From positions 1 to 12,567 of the forward strand of contig VGRA01000025.1 in assembly GCA_016875515.1 (NCBI GenBank): 12,567 bases of DNA. Direction: 5' to 3'. The notes below the pieces were generated by a model. The model saw only the letters and a program-made list of their open reading frames with translations. It made no database searches and was not told the DNA's origin. Shown here in pieces: positions 3,804-8,920 of this stretch. Numbering within the stretch: the stretch's first letter is position 1; each line of letters starts with the position of its first letter. Both the position numbers and the translations under genes were made by a program. Origin of the DNA: Deltaproteobacteria bacterium. Its GTDB lineage: Bacteria > Myxococcota > Myxococcia > Myxococcales > Myxococcaceae.

Positions 3804-4100
3804 GTCCCACCCCAGTCCTGAATGACGGGCGGAATCTGCAAGTCCAGCGCCGGGACCCGGGGCAGGGGTTCGCGTGCTTGCAACGGATTGCACCCGGGGC
3901 ACCCCTCCCGGGTGCACTCCGTGTCAGGCGCGTACGGGGCTCCTCCCGGCCGCGCGGCGGCCCTGTCCGTCAAAGTCCAGGGTCGGAGTCGTGACCCGGA
4001 GGGTCCTCCCTGTCCCCGGGAAGCAGCGGCTCAGGGGGGAGGTAAGGTGGCGACCGGCCCGGGACGCCGTTACGCCGCGATGGCTCACTCGGAGAACTGC
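3804..4100. promoter_or_regulatory. Divergent intergenic region, AbiEi-like gene / lipoprotein
   Basis: This is 297 bases between divergent starts, so both promoters should lie here, but I see no convincing -35/-10 pair on either strand. It holds a perfect 9-bp inverted repeat (gcacccggg at 3890-3898, cccgggtgc at 3907-3915) with an 8-base loop, and a shorter one (gaccc/gggtc, 3993-4005). Neither is followed by T's, so an operator or leader-RNA structure is more likely than a terminator. The plus-strand reading frame through it does not look coding. Confidence 0.4.
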
Positions 4101-5066
4101 ATGCGCCCACTGCTGCCGGTCCTCCTCCTGCTCGTCGCCGGCTGTGGCCGTACCCTTCCGGCTGGGATCCACCGGGACGAGGCAGTACCGCCCCCCGCGA
4201 AGGGCGGAAGCGAGGGGACCCCGGCCCGCCTGTTCTCAGTCCAGGGCACCGTGACGCAGGGACTGGTGGCGTCGCCGTCCTCCCCCCTGGAGGTGGGGGT
4301 GCTGTGGCTGAACCGCGTCGAGGCGGACAACACGGTGCTCGTGGAGACGACCCCTGCGGACGCCATTGGCGCCACCCTGCCCGCGGACTTCGACGTCTCC
4401 ATCCTCCGCGCCCCGAGCGATGCCATGCTCGGCACCACCCTCCTCAGCTACACCGAGGACGGCCGGAGCACCTGGGCCGCGGACCGGAACCGCGTTGCGT
4501 TTGGGCTGGTGGTGGTTGCGCCCGAGGGCACGTTCGCCAACCTGCCCGGCTCGGTGAGCTTCCTGGACTTCATCCAGGCAAGCCAGGGGGGGCCGGGGCC
4601 GCTGCTGCAGCAGTTCACCTACGTGTCTCCGTATACCGTTCGCTACGTCAAGGGTGCCACGGCGGAGGGACTCACCATCCGTGACATCAACGGGGTGGAG
4701 TCCGTACTCGAGGACATGACCGTCTACGAGGTGAGCGCGTGGGCCACCGGCATCACCGCCGCCGTATGCCGGGACCGGATACTCGGGGAGGGCTGGTCCA
4801 CCTCCGAGGTGAACGACTGCATCGCCGCGCAGACCGCAGCCAACCCCTACCGCGGCAGCGGCGACATCGGCAACGAGTGCCTGTACGCTTGGCAGCAGGC
4901 GAACCTCGCCGCGTTCGACACAGCCTGCGGGCCGTCGCCAGACTTCGCCGCGTCCGACTTCCGCAACAGCCCCCGGCTTGCCCCCTCCGCGCCGCTCACC
5001 CTGCCCCTGGGCGTCAACGACGTGCGGGATGCGCTCTCCTACGGTGGGTTCATCTTCATCGACTGA
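4101..5066 (+). CDS. Lipoprotein of unknown function
   Basis: The 321-residue product begins MRPLLPVLLLLVAGCG: a short basic start, a Leu-rich hydrophobic core and the lipobox LVAGC, so Cys15 should be lipidated and the mature protein anchored to a membrane, probably the outer membrane. The ATG at 4101 is chosen over the ATG at 4080 because SD ggag (4091-4094) lies six bases upstream and gives a correct signal peptide. After a disordered Pro/Gly stretch (to about residue 45) comes a beta-rich part (residues 46-205), then a C-terminal part with four cysteines (223, 240, 260, 276) that could form two disulfides. I recognise no family. Nothing in the sequence gives a reaction. It is transcribed away from the AbiEi-like gene, and its stop overlaps the convergent pseudouridine synthase gene by 11 bases. 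Confidence 0.8.
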   Translation: MRPLLPVLLLLVAGCGRTLPAGIHRDEAVPPPAKGGSEGTPARLFSVQGTVTQGLVASPSSPLEVGVLWLNRVEADNTVLVETTPADAIGATLPADFDVSILRAPSDAMLGTTLLSYTEDGRSTWAADRNRVAFGLVVVAPEGTFANLPGSVSFLDFIQASQGGPGPLLQQFTYVSPYTVRYVKGATAEGLTIRDINGVESVLEDMTVYEVSAWATGITAAVCRDRILGEGWSTSEVNDCIAAQTAANPYRGSGDIGNECLYAWQQANLAAFDTACGPSPDFAASDFRNSPRLAPSAPLTLPLGVNDVRDALSYGGFIFID

Positions 5067-6096
5067 CGGGCGCGGGGTGGTCGGCTTCTACGAGGCCTTC
5101 AGGTTCCGCGCGCGGGCGCACCTGGCGCGCCCACGAAGGCCTCGGGTCTGACAGCGGCCGTCCCGCGAGGAAGTCCTCCAGATCCCCCGGCAGCGGCGCC
5201 TCCACCACCAGCTCCTTGCCGGTGGACGGGTGCGGGAAGGAAATCCTCGCCGCGTGGAGCGCGTGCCGGGGCAGCCGCAACCGCGCCCACGCCTCCTCCT
5301 CCAGGCAGTGCCTGCTGAAACGGTCGAAGTACCCGCTGTCCGGCCCGTACATCTTGTCCCCGACGATGGGGAACCCCGCCAGCTGCAGGTGGATGCGGAT
5401 TTGATGCTGCCGCCCCGTCACCGGGAAGCAGCGCAAGAGCGCGAACCGCTCCCCGTCCCGCTCAAAGCGATGCAACACCCGGAACCGCGTCCGCGCCGGC
5501 TTGCCCACCTCGCGGTCAATCCGCACCGCAATCCGGATGAGCTCCGTGCCCTCCGCGATGGGCGCGTCCACCTCGAACGCGTCCTCGGGTGGCGCCCCCT
5601 CCACCACCGCCACGTACTCCTTGTGCACGTCCCGCCCGGCGAACAGGCGCATGAGCCGCCGGCTCGTCTCCGTGTCCCGCGCGCAGACGACAATCCCGCT
5701 CGTCTCCCGGTCCAGCCGGTGCGCCGGGTCCGCCTGGAAGTCCGCCCCGTACAGCTCCTTCACCCTTCCGACGAGCGTCCCGTGGAAGTACCGAGCGCTC
5801 GGGTGGATGGGCAGCCCCGCCGGCTTGTCGAACACGATGAGCACGTCGTCCCGGTACAGCTCCGGCAGCTCCGCGGGCGTCTCCGGCTCCGCCTGCGCCT
5901 TGCGCCGCAGCCGGAACGTCATCCCCCGCCGCACCAGCGTGCTCGGCTTGAGGACGTGCCCCTCCTCCTGCACCAGTTCGTTCTGGATGATGCGCTGCAC
6001 CCGCGTGCGGGACAGCCGCCGCAGCTTCTCGCGGAGGTACCGGTCCAGCCGCCAGCCGTCGTAATTCGGCTCCACGGTGAAGGGGATGTCGATCAT
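5056..6096 (-). CDS. RluA-family pseudouridine synthase
   Basis: This family isomerises specific uridines in rRNA or tRNA to pseudouridine. The 346-residue protein has an N-terminal S4 RNA-binding domain (about residues 14-63, with WRLDRYLREKLRRLSRTRVQ) and a catalytic domain with the motif HRLDRETSGI; Asp129 is the expected nucleophile. Later motifs are VTGRQHQIRIHLQLAGFPIV followed by GDKMYG, typical of RluA/RluC/RluD proteins. A C-terminal tail of about 35 Arg/Pro-rich residues follows. The exact RNA target cannot be read from sequence, so no symbol is given. ATG 6096 is chosen because the minus strand carries GGAG five bases upstream (6102-6105) and it starts directly at the conserved domain; an in-frame ATG at 6168 adds 24 residues but has no ribosome site. 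The end overlaps the convergent lipoprotein gene by 11 bases. Confidence 0.93.
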   Translation of the reverse strand: MIDIPFTVEPNYDGWRLDRYLREKLRRLSRTRVQRIIQNELVQEEGHVLKPSTLVRRGMTFRLRRKAQAEPETPAELPELYRDDVLIVFDKPAGLPIHPSARYFHGTLVGRVKELYGADFQADPAHRLDRETSGIVVCARDTETSRRLMRLFAGRDVHKEYVAVVEGAPPEDAFEVDAPIAEGTELIRIAVRIDREVGKPARTRFRVLHRFERDGERFALLRCFPVTGRQHQIRIHLQLAGFPIVGDKMYGPDSGYFDRFSRHCLEEEAWARLRLPRHALHAARISFPHPSTGKELVVEAPLPGDLEDFLAGRPLSDPRPSWARQVRPRAEPEGLVEADHPAPVSR

Positions 6097-6101
6097 CCCC
6101 T

Positions 6102-6105
6102 CTCC
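6102..6105 (-). promoter_or_regulatory. Ribosome binding site deciding the RluA-family start
   Basis: On the minus strand GGAG is followed by AGGGG and then ATG at 6096. No comparable site precedes the upstream ATG at 6168, so the shorter protein is preferred. Confidence 0.6.
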
Positions 6106-6290
6106 GGGCTCGCAAGGCTGCGTCGGTTCATGGTCTGGAGCGGACACGTGCCCTCGGTCAGACGCCATGCCGCGGAGTTCTGCGAACCCAGAAGCAGTGG
6201 GACGGCGTTTGTCGCTTATCAGACCTCGTACCCGGGACGGACTTGAAGCGGACAGGTCCGGCGAATTCGGGCGCGAATCTGCAGCGCGAG

Positions 6291-6309
6291 CGGTCTAGAC
6301 CGTTATACG
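6291..6309 (+). promoter_or_regulatory. Palindrome and possible -10 upstream of the rhodopsin gene
   Basis: The 12-bp sequence cggtctagaccg (6291-6302) is a perfect palindrome, followed at once by ttatacg, in which TATACG (6304-6309) matches four of six -10 positions. A start near 6316 would give a leader of about 40 bases containing the ribosome site. No good -35 is seen 17 bases upstream, so the promoter would need an activator or another sigma factor, or is not real. The palindrome's place just upstream of a -10 suits a MerR-type operator, but that is speculation. Confidence 0.35.
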
Positions 6310-6344
6310 AGCACGACTGCGCGGATCTTCCCGCGCCTCCAGCC

Positions 6345-6350
6345 AGGAGG
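6345..6350 (+). promoter_or_regulatory. Strong Shine-Dalgarno for the rhodopsin gene
   Basis: The sequence aggagg lies five bases before the GTG at 6356. It fixes this start and suggests efficient translation despite the non-ATG codon. Confidence 0.8.
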
Positions 6351-6355
6351 GCCTC

Positions 6356-7150
6356 GTGCCCGAACTCAGCGTTTCGCAGTTCAGCCTCGTCTACAACATG
6401 TTGTCGCTCGCCATCGCAGCCATGCTCGGCTCATTTGCCTTCTTCGTGATGGCGCGCTCGCAGGTGTCACTTCGGTTCCGGCCGGCGCTGGTCATGTCCT
6501 CGCTGGTCGTTGGCATTGCCGGCTACCACTACTGGCGGATTTTCGGCTCGTGGGACGCGGCCTACCGCCTCAACGACGCGCACACGGCCTACGTCGCCAC
6601 CGGCAAGCCCTTCAACGACGCCTACCGCTACGTCGACTGGCTCCTGACCGTGCCGCTCCTCGTGGCGGAGTTGGTGGCAGTGATGACGCTTCCCAAGGGC
6701 AAGCGTGGGGCCATTATGGGCAAGCTCATCATCGCTTCGGCCCTGATGATCGCCCTGGGGTACCCGGGCGAGGTGTCGAACGACCAGGCCACCGCTCTGC
6801 TGTGGGGGACCCTCTCGAGCGTGCCGTTCGCGTACATCCTGTACGTGCTGTGGGGTGAGCTCTCCAAGTCCACTGCGGGCGAGTCTGGCGAGGTGAACAT
6901 CCTGCTCCGCAACACCAAGCTCCTGCTCATTGGCACGTGGGGCTTCTACCCCATTACCTACATCCTGGGCATCGAGTCGCTCGGGCTGGTGAGCGGGGCC
7001 AACGCCGTGGTCGCGCTCCAGGTTGGGTACAGCCTCGCGGACATTGCGGCGAAGTGCGGCTACGGGCTGATGATCTACGCCATCGCGCAGGCACGGATGG
7101 CCGCAGCAGGGGAGACCGTGGACGGCACCGCGGCCCAGGCTGCCCACTAG
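6356..7150 (+). CDS. Xanthorhodopsin-like light-driven proton pump
   Basis: This is a 264-residue seven-helix microbial rhodopsin that binds retinal and pumps H+ outward across the inner membrane. Approximate helices: A 10-32, B 43-63, C 89-112, D 118-137, E 146-167, F 183-206, G 216-243. Helix C reads RYVDWLLTVPLLVAEL: Arg91, proton acceptor Asp94, Thr98 and donor Glu105, the DTE set of proteorhodopsin and xanthorhodopsin. His58 (GYHYW) matches the helix-B histidine that pairs with the acceptor. Retinal is held by Lys233, with Asp229 as counter-ion partner and Trp195, Tyr198, Pro199 in helix F. Leu102 sits at the green/blue tuning site and predicts green absorption. Gly151 (LLWGTLSS) sits where xanthorhodopsin has the glycine that opens a carotenoid-antenna window and bacteriorhodopsin has Trp138. 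The stretch GYPGEVS and WGFYPITYILG also resemble Salinibacter xanthorhodopsin. GC content looks lower than in kdsB or pyrG, a hint of transfer. No retinal or carotenoid gene is in the window. Confidence 0.97.
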   Translation: MPELSVSQFSLVYNMLSLAIAAMLGSFAFFVMARSQVSLRFRPALVMSSLVVGIAGYHYWRIFGSWDAAYRLNDAHTAYVATGKPFNDAYRYVDWLLTVPLLVAELVAVMTLPKGKRGAIMGKLIIASALMIALGYPGEVSNDQATALLWGTLSSVPFAYILYVLWGELSKSTAGESGEVNILLRNTKLLLIGTWGFYPITYILGIESLGLVSGANAVVALQVGYSLADIAAKCGYGLMIYAIAQARMAAAGETVDGTAAQAAH

Positions 7151-7172
7151 CCACCGCGCGCAAGGTCAGGCC

Positions 7173-7379
7173 ATGACTGAACATCCTTACGAACAACACC
7201 ACCTCGTAGGCTCCGCGTTGATGGGGTTCAGTACACTCGGGATTGGCTTGGGGCTCGTGATGACGGCGCGTGGGTTCGTGAACGAGGGCTTCCTCGACGG
7301 GCCGAACGCCGTGGCCATTGGGGTTCTCACCTTCCTGGTCGGGCTCTCGCTTCGGAGAGCAGGTGTGTCCAGGCGCTGA
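7173..7379 (+). CDS. Small two-helix membrane protein in the rhodopsin operon
   Basis: A 68-residue protein starts 22 bases after the rhodopsin stop, with a modest ribosome site (aaggtcagg, 7162-7170). It has two hydrophobic segments, about residues 10-33 (VGSALMGFSTLGIGLGLVMT) and 44-61 (NAVAIGVLTFLVGLSL), and a short loop between them (RGFVNEGFLDGP). The basic end RRAGVSRR suggests that both termini face the cytoplasm. The N-terminus is polar with three histidines (MTEHPYEQHH). Glycine and alanine are abundant in the helices, as in tightly packed membrane subunits. I recognise no family. Its position between the rhodopsin and a strong terminator implies co-transcription, so it could be an accessory or packing partner of the rhodopsin, or an unrelated small membrane protein. 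Coding status rests on length, hydrophobic pattern and spacing. Confidence 0.75.
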   Translation: MTEHPYEQHHLVGSALMGFSTLGIGLGLVMTARGFVNEGFLDGPNAVAIGVLTFLVGLSLRRAGVSRR

Positions 7380-7401
7380 CCCACCCGGACCGTCAACGCC
7401 G

Positions 7402-7438
7402 AGGGCGCGGGCACCACTGCCCGCGCCCTTTGTTGTTT
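7402..7438 (+). terminator. Intrinsic terminator of the rhodopsin operon
   Basis: A perfect 11-bp GC-rich stem (gggcgcgggca at 7403-7413, tgcccgcgccc at 7418-7428) with a four-base loop (ccac), extended by an A-T pair at 7402/7429, is followed by tttgttgttt (7429-7438). It lies 22 bases after the small membrane protein stop. The minus-strand side has no T-run, so it works mainly for plus-strand transcripts. Confidence 0.9.
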
Positions 7439-7445
7439 CCGCAGT

Positions 7446-7910
7446 TCAGCCCCGCGCCCGCCGCGCCTCCCCTCCGAGCAGCCGCGCGTACACGTCCCCA
7501 ACCCGCTCCGCCGCGCGCCCGTCCCACAGGTCCGGCACCCGCCCGCGCTTGCCCTCTCCGCGCAGCACCCGGTTCAGCTCCTCCGGCATCCCCCGGTCGA
7601 AGCTGTGCAGCCCCGCCTCCACGTGGGCGAGCAGCACTCCGGCGCGCGCCGCCACCAGCGCCGCCGCCAGGGTCCCGTGCACGTCCCCCACCACGGACAC
7701 CAGCCCGGGCCGGTTCCGCTCCAGCTCGCGCTCCAGCGGCACCCTCACCCGCGCCACGGCCTCCGCGTGCGTGCCGCTCCCCACGCCCAGGTGCACGTCC
7801 GGCTCCGGCAGCCCCAGCTCGCGGAAGAAGACGCCGCTCATCGCCTCGCCGTGGTGCTGCCCGGTGTGGACCAACCGCGGCGGCACGCGCCGCCGCTCCA
7901 GCGCCCGCCG
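7446..7910 (-). pseudogene. wecB: Remnant of UDP-N-acetylglucosamine 2-epimerase
   Basis: The intact enzyme (about 370 residues) converts UDP-GlcNAc to UDP-ManNAc for cell-surface polysaccharides. The minus strand here encodes clear family blocks in one frame: RALERRRVPPRLVHTGQHHG, MSGVFFRELGLPEPD, LGVGSGTHAEAVAR, VSVVGDVHGTLAAALVAARA and AHVEAGLHSFDRGMPEELNR. Right after NRVL (near 7563) the frame jumps to RGRVPDLWDGRAAERV, which is the C-terminal end of the family; roughly 200 residues, including the catalytic His region, are absent. The amino end, with the usual FGTRPEA motif, is also absent: upstream of about 7910 the frame becomes Arg/Gly-rich noise through a C10 run. The frame stays open to 7446 because the internal loss is in frame. 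It is a decayed gene, and an active copy, if any, must be elsewhere. Left and right edges of the homology are approximate. Confidence 0.8.
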
Positions 7911-8047
7911 CCGCGTGAAGCACGTTCTCCATGGCGCGCGAAGGTGGCGCGGGCCCCCCCCCCGCGGGGAGCGCCCCCCGCGCACAAGCTGTCCTGCGGC
8001 GGGCACTCGCGCACCGGGGCCCGTCTCTGTCAGGGTGACTACCCGCC

Positions 8048-8920
8048 ATGTCCCTCCTTCCCGAGTGCCAGCCCCCCTACCCCGGCTGCGGCGCTGTGCC
8101 GCCCAACGGCACCCGGTGCACCGCGTGCGAGGCGCTCGCCGAAGCCCTCGCCCGCGCCCCCCGCCCCGTCACGCTCGCGGTCATCCCCGCCCGCTTCGCC
8201 TCCAGCCGCTTTCCCGGCAAGCCCCTGGCGCTGCTGCGCGGCCGGCCCATGGTGCAGCACGTCCACGCCCGCGCGGTGGCCTCGGGCGCGTTCGCCGCGG
8301 TGGTGGTGGCCACGGACGACGCGCGCATCGCGGAGGCCGTGCGGGGGTTCGGCGGGCACGTGGCCCTCACCTCGCCCACCTGCAGCAGCGGGACGGACCG
8401 CGCCGCGGAGGTGCTGGCGCGCTTCCCCGGCGTGGAGGTGGTGGTGAACGTGCAGGGGGACGAGCCGCTGGTGGACCCGGAGGCCCTGCGGACGCTCGCC
8501 GAGGCCTTCCAGGACAGCGCCGTGCAGATGGCCACGCTGGTCCGACCGCTGGAGGAGGAGGAGCGGGGCAACCCCAACGTGGTGAAGGCGGTGGTGGCCG
8601 GCAGCGGGGACGCGCTGTACTTCTCGCGCGCGGAGGTGCCGTTCTCGCGAGACGGCAAGCCCGCGCCGCGCTGGGCGCACGTGGGGCTGTACGGCTACCG
8701 GCGCGCGGTGCTGGAGCGGCTCGCCCGGCTGCCCCCTTCCCCGCTGGAGCAGGTGGAGCTGCTGGAGCAGCTGCGCGCGCTGGAGGACGGCATCCGCATC
8801 CGCTGCCTGCCCACGGCCTTCCGCGGCGTGGGGGTGGACACGCCCGCGGACCTGGCGAGGGCGGAGGCGCTCCTGCCCCCGGGCGACTTTTTCGTTGACG
8901 CCTCCCCCAAGGTTCGGTGA
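8048..8920 (+). CDS. kdsB: 3-deoxy-manno-octulosonate cytidylyltransferase (CMP-Kdo synthetase)
   Basis: KdsB activates Kdo with CTP to CMP-Kdo, the donor for the LPS inner core. The catalytic domain starts near residue 41 with VTLAVIPARFASSRFPGKPL and continues with VVVATDDARIAEAV, SGTDRAAEV, VVNVQGDEPLVDPEA, YFSRAEVPFSRDG, HVGLYGYRR and GVGVDTPADL, all characteristic. The protein has 290 residues against about 250 for E. coli KdsB; the surplus is an N-terminal extension of about 40 residues with Cys7, Cys14, Cys24 and Cys27 (GTRCTACE at the end), resembling a small zinc-ribbon. No ATG, GTG or TTG lies next to the catalytic domain, which supports the ATG at 8048; its ribosome site is weak (agggtga near 8032). 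It is first in a four-gene operon and is followed after nine bases by pyrG, whose product CTP it uses. Confidence 0.95.
   Translation: MSLLPECQPPYPGCGAVPPNGTRCTACEALAEALARAPRPVTLAVIPARFASSRFPGKPLALLRGRPMVQHVHARAVASGAFAAVVVATDDARIAEAVRGFGGHVALTSPTCSSGTDRAAEVLARFPGVEVVVNVQGDEPLVDPEALRTLAEAFQDSAVQMATLVRPLEEEERGNPNVVKAVVAGSGDALYFSRAEVPFSRDGKPAPRWAHVGLYGYRRAVLERLARLPPSPLEQVELLEQLRALEDGIRIRCLPTAFRGVGVDTPADLARAEALLPPGDFFVDASPKVR

Follow-up and report, generated by a model that had tools for sequence, protein, structure and literature searches.

Ion-pumping rhodopsins have, to our knowledge, been regarded as single-gene systems whose only further requirements are retinal and, in some cases, a carotenoid. 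For Kin4B8, the structurally characterised protein nearest to the rhodopsin described here, 3-hydroxy carotenoids are reported to be the best antennae, whereas salinixanthin binds without energy transfer; the antenna site is recognised by a fenestration glycine together with a conserved tyrosine (Tyr204 in Kin4B8), and the pigment is reported to be decided by the pair Ser208/Tyr209 (PMC12308411). At these two positions a polar pair goes with 3-hydroxy carotenoids and a hydrophobic pair with 4-keto carotenoids. Salinixanthin itself is described as the glucoside ester of a monocyclic carotenoid (PMC5822342), and its ring as a 4-keto one (PMC13093654). Rhodopsin genes have also been reported in metagenome-assembled genomes (MAGs) of Ca. 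Houyibacterium (without blh) and Ca. Kuafuhalomonas, other members of the Myxococcota (PMC10576062), and heliorhodopsin has been reported to bind glutamine synthetase, the product of an adjacent gene of its operon (PMC9529153).

We analysed a stretch of 12,567 nt (the window), which is a whole contig of the MAG G000 (3.92 Mb in 904 contigs, 87% complete and 3.4% contaminated). Its rhodopsin is of a familiar kind and its host an unusual one; what is new here is the partner gene that lies behind the rhodopsin, a small gene at 7173-7379 that went unmentioned in an earlier note on this DNA. The features at the centre of the locus are the following.

6356..7150, + strand: rhodopsin ORF, predicted xanthorhodopsin-type proton pump of 264 aa with a D94-T98-E105 motif (Pfam, PDB matches, tree and AlphaFold model)
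6345..6350, + strand: Shine-Dalgarno sequence AGGAGG, read from the sequence upstream of the rhodopsin
7173..7379, + strand: small two-helix membrane protein (68 aa), separated from the rhodopsin stop by 22 nt (position, hydrophobicity and profile)

The rhodopsin ORF starts with GTG and matches the Pfam family Bac_rhodopsin (PF01036) with 121.4 bits (E 5e-35). All eight residues that the earlier note had named, His58, Arg91, Asp94, Thr98, Glu105, Gly151, Asp229 and Lys233, are found at the numbers it gave, and Gly151, which it had equated with the antenna glycine of xanthorhodopsin, does align with Gly153 of Kin4B8 and with the SrXR glycine. The protein has the Schiff-base lysine (Lys233) and the microbial rhodopsin fold, and its Asp-Thr-Glu pump motif and helix-B histidine are identical in every row of the tabulated alignment. 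A sequence search of the PDB placed Kin4B8 at the top (298.6 bits), followed by Gloeobacter rhodopsin, psXR, Salinibacter xanthorhodopsin and thermophilic rhodopsin at 267-255 bits (267 for the Gloeobacter and 262 for the Salinibacter protein); chains of the xanthorhodopsin type scored 254-299 bits, against 85-87 bits for green proteorhodopsin. The AlphaFold model (pLDDT 88) gave TM values of 0.87-0.91 to xanthorhodopsin-type structures, with Kin4B8 as the best match (TM 0.90).

In a tree of 107 rows, made by a quick method with SH-aLRT support only, holding no marine proteorhodopsin and rooted on one distant row (L108), the window rhodopsin falls inside a 35-row branch with a support of 99 that excludes Kin4B8, GR, psXR, SrXR and TR. 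Its grouping with xanthorhodopsin and Gloeobacter rhodopsin, away from marine proteorhodopsin, rests mainly on the scores. Scores, tree and fold match to Kin4B8 all agree with the xanthorhodopsin-type assignment proposed earlier, and on this sequence evidence we class the protein as a xanthorhodopsin-type pump in a branch of its own. Several of its 120 best listed database homologues bear Myxococcota names, and the homologue P0003 has a rhodopsin at 92%. As its residues match those of characterised pumps, the protein would be expected to pump protons: light would isomerise retinal on Lys233, the Schiff-base proton would pass to Asp94, with His58 and Asp229, and Glu105 would reprotonate the Schiff base, so that one proton would leave the cell.

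The small protein has two hydrophobic stretches, and a weak AlphaFold model (pLDDT 67) places helices at residues 5-32 and 43-66. Candidates in the window and at loci L002-L034 were first picked for their position and hydrophobic character, and a first profile was built from 16 aligned sequences, those of the window and 15 loci, which match it by construction. Among the best 80 of 577 confirmed loci, the partner gene lies behind the rhodopsin on the same strand at 15 (L002-L014, L020 and L022) and was not found at 65, three of which (L046, L048 and L071) have less than 300 nt downstream and are too short to judge. With the start codons chosen, six of the 15 partner genes overlap the rhodopsin stop by 1-4 nt and 14 lie within 80 nt of the rhodopsin, the one at L006 being 488 nt away; at the window and all 15 loci the two genes are in different frames. 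No convincing fusion of rhodopsin and small protein was found among the 120 best listed homologues (best 11.6 bits).

The pair is present in 18 genomes, namely those of the window and the 15 loci, G123 and G090, with L106 and L007 belonging to one genome that was counted once, and 18 of the 19 partner-bearing rows (L007 and L106 again from the same genome) lie in one branch of the tree (SH-aLRT 99). Ten rhodopsin positions carry clade-specific residues, which were considered as a possible interface. The only copies seen away from directly behind a rhodopsin are a weaker second copy (36 bits) at L010 (5461-5679, + strand), which lies upstream of the rhodopsin with a normal one downstream, and a member (25 bits) at the contig start of L166 (2-250, + strand), before an RPE65-type carotenoid oxygenase, where a rhodopsin, if any, would lie beyond the contig end. 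One partner-bearing locus, L008, comes from a record titled Klebsiella pneumoniae. In all likelihood this is an environmental MAG with the wrong label; both its rhodopsin and its partner gene group within the Myxococcota-type branch.

Partner and rhodopsin co-occur, and we regard a functional tie between them as highly likely. That the partner would bind the pump as a physical subunit is a closer question, to which we give slightly better than even chances. On balance, we read the two genes as probably a phototrophy cassette in a chromosome of the Archangium family, consisting of the pump and a two-helix accessory subunit; beside the pump, the small protein could serve assembly or the stability of an oligomer, or it could hold a lipid or a carotenoid.

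The supply of retinal bears on this reading. The earlier note had named a genome without retinal synthesis genes as evidence that would count against its proposal, and this was borne out in part: profile searches of G000, itself 87% complete, found neither Blh nor an RPE65-type oxygenase. The Blh profile was positive in 10 of 26 rhodopsin genomes and, among four further genomes, in G090 and G197, and it found nothing in G123 and G210; the RPE65 profile was positive in 12 of 23 genomes, including G007, G011, G014, G015 and G123 of the same family. Neither enzyme family was found in seven of the 18 partner-bearing genomes (G000, G040, G041, G046, G047, G057 and G058, with completeness stated for G000 only), two of which, G040 and G041, are the genomes of the two closest rhodopsin loci, and the other 11 have at least one of the families. 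Working rhodopsins have been reported from a bacterium without a known retinal gene (PMC7734400). The window rhodopsin might receive its retinal from the surroundings, or the host might make it with an unrecognised enzyme or with one whose gene escaped the incomplete MAG.

The same data give some ground to an explanation that we nevertheless find unlikely, in which the small protein is no fixed subunit and instead serves to take up, hold or pass on retinal or a carotenoid. Hosts without either enzyme family may need help with retinal from outside, and the small gene lies near retinal-forming genes at five loci: flanked by rhodopsin and blh at L005 and L107, in a pair adjoined by a divergent blh at L011, in a pair adjoined by an RPE65-type oxygenase divergent from the rhodopsin at L012 (1650-3218, - strand; this enzyme might stand in for Blh in supplying retinal), and at L166. 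However, the small gene occurs both with and without a retinal-forming enzyme, so that it does not replace one, and no known family resembles its product above cut-off. Neither Pfam (searched with six members) nor NCBIfam (four members) gave a match over the curated cut-off, and a database search returned 27 proteins, including the window's own, none of which has a precomputed Pfam domain or a functional name; 26 of these, with L105 and L107, were added to a second profile, which brought out the additional copies at L010 and L166.

It is also quite unlikely, in our view, that the rhodopsin is an ordinary xanthorhodopsin and that the small gene serves some other membrane function and moves along with it from an old adjacency. 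The loosely conserved sequence of the small protein (33% mean column identity), which by dN evolves faster than the rhodopsin in six of six pairs, would fit this. Against it, the first profile, run over 195 genomes of the phylum with at most 30 candidates scored per genome, gave three matches (G000, G210 and G123), each beside a rhodopsin, and none away from one. The association has a Fisher p of 8e-6 (3 of 5 versus 0 of 190), to be read with the genomes being related rather than independent and with G000 and G210 being in the profile; the G123 match is independent of the set from which the first profile was built. The remaining two of the five genomes with a confident rhodopsin, G090 and G197, gave no match to the first profile; a divergent copy in G090 was seen by eye and then added to the second profile, and none was seen at G197 (L108). 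Given the missed G090 copy and the limit of 30 candidates per genome, absence from the profile search is no proof.

Also against a mere travelling companion, the pair is kept across differing neighbourhoods (judged by eye, and by tblastn for L105 and L106), and the small gene is, by its substitution ratios, under purifying selection. In each of the two closest of six pairs compared, dN/dS is about 0.33 (L002/L003, dN 0.080 and dS 0.239; L008/L020, dN 0.146 and dS 0.445), and the four more distant pairs, in which dS exceeds 1 and the ratios run from about 0.2 to 0.54, say little. The possibility that the small gene is a chance ORF was rejected on its conservation at 15 loci, the genome-wide profile search and dN/dS.

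Haloarchaeal sensory rhodopsin II signals through the two-helix membrane part of HtrII, a type of transducer in which two membrane helices are followed by a cytoplasmic signalling domain, and two membrane helices beside a rhodopsin recall that arrangement, but a photosensor of this kind is very improbable here, as the small protein of 68 aa ends after its helices and leaves no room for a signalling domain, no kinase or chemotaxis protein was found by Pfam among the ten window ORFs scanned, and the pump residues are complete, Glu105 included.

The rhodopsin and the small gene are likely to be on one transcript, and two candidate signals lie on either side of them.

6291..6302, no strand assigned: 12-base perfect palindrome CGGTCTAGACCG, possible operator, upstream of the rhodopsin start
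7401..7430, + strand: terminator-like hairpin of 13 pairs (10 G-C) with a T-rich tail, separated from the small gene by 21 nt

The palindrome, the only perfect one of at least 12 bases in 6101-6360, may be an operator; the corresponding upstream regions at L002 and L003 lack it, so it is not conserved at these two loci. A promoter scan of 6100-7700 found none, and the hairpin scan found one hairpin against a mean of 0.7 in shuffled sequences, so it may be due to chance.

The cassette is flanked by genes that are shared with relatives of the host.

5056..6168, - strand: RluD-type pseudouridine synthase, to the left of the insertion (Pfam and relatives)
7446..8006, - strand: WecB-type UDP-GlcNAc 2-epimerase with about 195 internal residues missing, to the right of the insertion (Pfam and relatives)
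8048..8920, + strand: KdsB, conserved neighbour (Pfam and relatives)

A probable myxobacterial host had been suggested, and the 120 best CTP synthase matches do include Archangium, Cystobacter, Vitiosangium and Myxococcaceae, the closest named match among them (94%) being a MAG labelled only Pseudomonadota; the database homologue P0152 has PyrG at 94%. G000 belongs to the family that holds Archangium. We compared the regions round RluD from 15 relatives. RluD, WecB and KdsB occur in the window's order, free of rhodopsin, in seven of these, all of the same family (L135, L136, L137, L138, L140, L141 and L144), and outside the three genes some of the seven also show PurF, YhbY, DnaJ/TPR, PyrG or KdsA where the stretch reaches. 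The gap between RluD and WecB is below 1 kb in four of the seven and about 2.3-2.4 kb, with other ORFs, in three, the gaps measured at L136 and L141 including the end of WecB, and the small-protein profile found nothing in these seven regions. Six other relatives, all with long stretches, have rluD neighbours that differ from the window's (only PurF-RluD is kept at L146 and L147, and only RluD is seen at L142, L143, L148 and L149); the contigs of L139 and L145 are short. A mis-binned or chimeric contig is unlikely, since both flanks keep the gene order of the seven same-family genomes.

The rhodopsin is found in only one of 40 genomes (the host's own and 39 relatives), which is the host's own, and above cut-off in five of 195 genomes of the phylum, with two more giving weak matches below cut-off. 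Within the same family, G123 has a rhodopsin that is 64% identical, on a 16-kb stretch without any other window gene. The placement between rluD and wecB, together with this rarity, supports acquisition by transfer or patchy loss elsewhere. The earlier note had argued for acquisition from low GC, and its figures hold (65.0% in the rhodopsin versus 76.1% in kdsB), but its argument does not: third-position GC is 89.8% in the rhodopsin and between 89.0% and 96.4% in the seven genes measured around it (73.9% in the small gene), so that most of the gap reflects the amino-acid make-up of a membrane protein, and low GC was rejected as proof of acquisition. That the gene may be acquired stands instead on synteny and on its rarity in the order and phylum. 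Elsewhere in the window, wecB is a single open frame despite the missing residues and matches only residues 37-141 and 337-369 of the 379-residue frame at L138, the gap being either a deletion or an assembly collapse, and an ORF of 414 aa (3822-5066, + strand) between purF and rluD has no Pfam match.

A search of the genome for crtI, crtB and crtY had been proposed, and crtI, crtB and crtYc-crtYd are present on contig G000:C1. There, on one strand, lie a CrtI-family desaturase (cut by the contig end), a phytoene synthase, a second desaturase of the CrtI/CrtD type, a CrtC-type hydratase, a GT21 glycosyltransferase, two lycopene cyclase domain proteins, an acyltransferase and a MerR-B12 regulator that is nearest to CarH; several of these genes score below NCBIfam equivalog cut-offs. 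The order crtI-crtB-crtD-crtC-glycosyltransferase-crtYc-crtYd-acyltransferase-CarA/CarH-type regulator is the same as in the carB operon of Myxococcus xanthus (PMC8156234), with the differences that crtE is unseen, because the contig ends in crtI, that only one CarA/CarH-type gene was noted, and that the ketolase was not identified. A CrtW-type ketolase sought through PF00487 was rejected, as the better of two hits is nearest to a DesA-type fatty acid desaturase; the second hit in G000 has 34 bits. The product of the M. xanthus operon is reported as myxobacton ester, a monocyclic compound whose ring bears a keto group and whose opposite end bears an acylated sugar (PMC8156234). Gene order suggests that the host carotenoid is probably of the myxobacton-ester type, and would place the pigment in the salinixanthin class.

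The host's own carotenoid could then act as antenna of the pump. Such antenna use is possible, as judged from the site: the fenestration glycine and the conserved tyrosine are present as Gly151 and Tyr202, and the site also has Ser155. The residues at Kin4B8 positions 208/209 are Ile206/Glu207 in the ungapped alignment, Ile206/Leu209 with MAFFT and Ser208/Leu209 with HMMER. The three readings arise from the placement of a two-residue insertion, and the sequence does not tell which pigment would be preferred. Alanine takes the place of the fenestration glycine in five of the 18 partner-bearing rhodopsins (L005, L008, L009, L012 and L020), which counts against the antenna role being obligate.

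That one branch of pumps has kept a partner gene suggests a dedicated protein subunit. As a speculative extension, which we hold to be rather doubtful, the mostly-Myxococcota branch of xanthorhodopsins might be a two-subunit light pump whose partner perhaps clamps an acyl-glycosylated carotenoid or sets the oligomer, and the Archangium-family predator might pair the pump with a CarH-controlled, light-induced photoprotective pigment of the salinixanthin type as antenna and obtain retinal from outside, e.g. from prey. The combination of a light pump and a carotenoid operon of a light-switched type in a well-studied predatory family links two research fields, and with neither known retinal-forming enzyme found, the question of retinal supply becomes testable.

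Titles and the starts of abstracts, with subscription papers outside this coverage, mentioned no such partner gene and no rhodopsin in the kin of Archangium. The rhodopsins of Ca. Houyibacterium and Ca. Kuafuhalomonas are called proteorhodopsin in a report that studies those MAGs for photosynthesis genes, and its available portion mentions no partner gene (PMC10576062). Kin4B8 (PDB 7ytb and 8i2z) has the same pump residues and fenestration glycine as the window rhodopsin, but the two are 58-59% identical and lie in different branches, and the two Kin4B8-like loci in the tree (L024 and L031) lack the partner. Salinibacter xanthorhodopsin (3ddl) and Gloeobacter rhodopsin (6nwd) likewise share the pump residues and the glycine and belong to other branches; no partner was found at the Salinibacter locus L067 or at the cyanobacterial loci examined, L048 being the one too short to judge. 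The pairing of heliorhodopsin with glutamine synthetase, as far as the available portion of that report goes (PMC9529153), also joins a rhodopsin to the product of its neighbouring gene, but it involves no pump of the window's branch and its partner is a soluble enzyme, whereas the partner here is a two-helix membrane protein.
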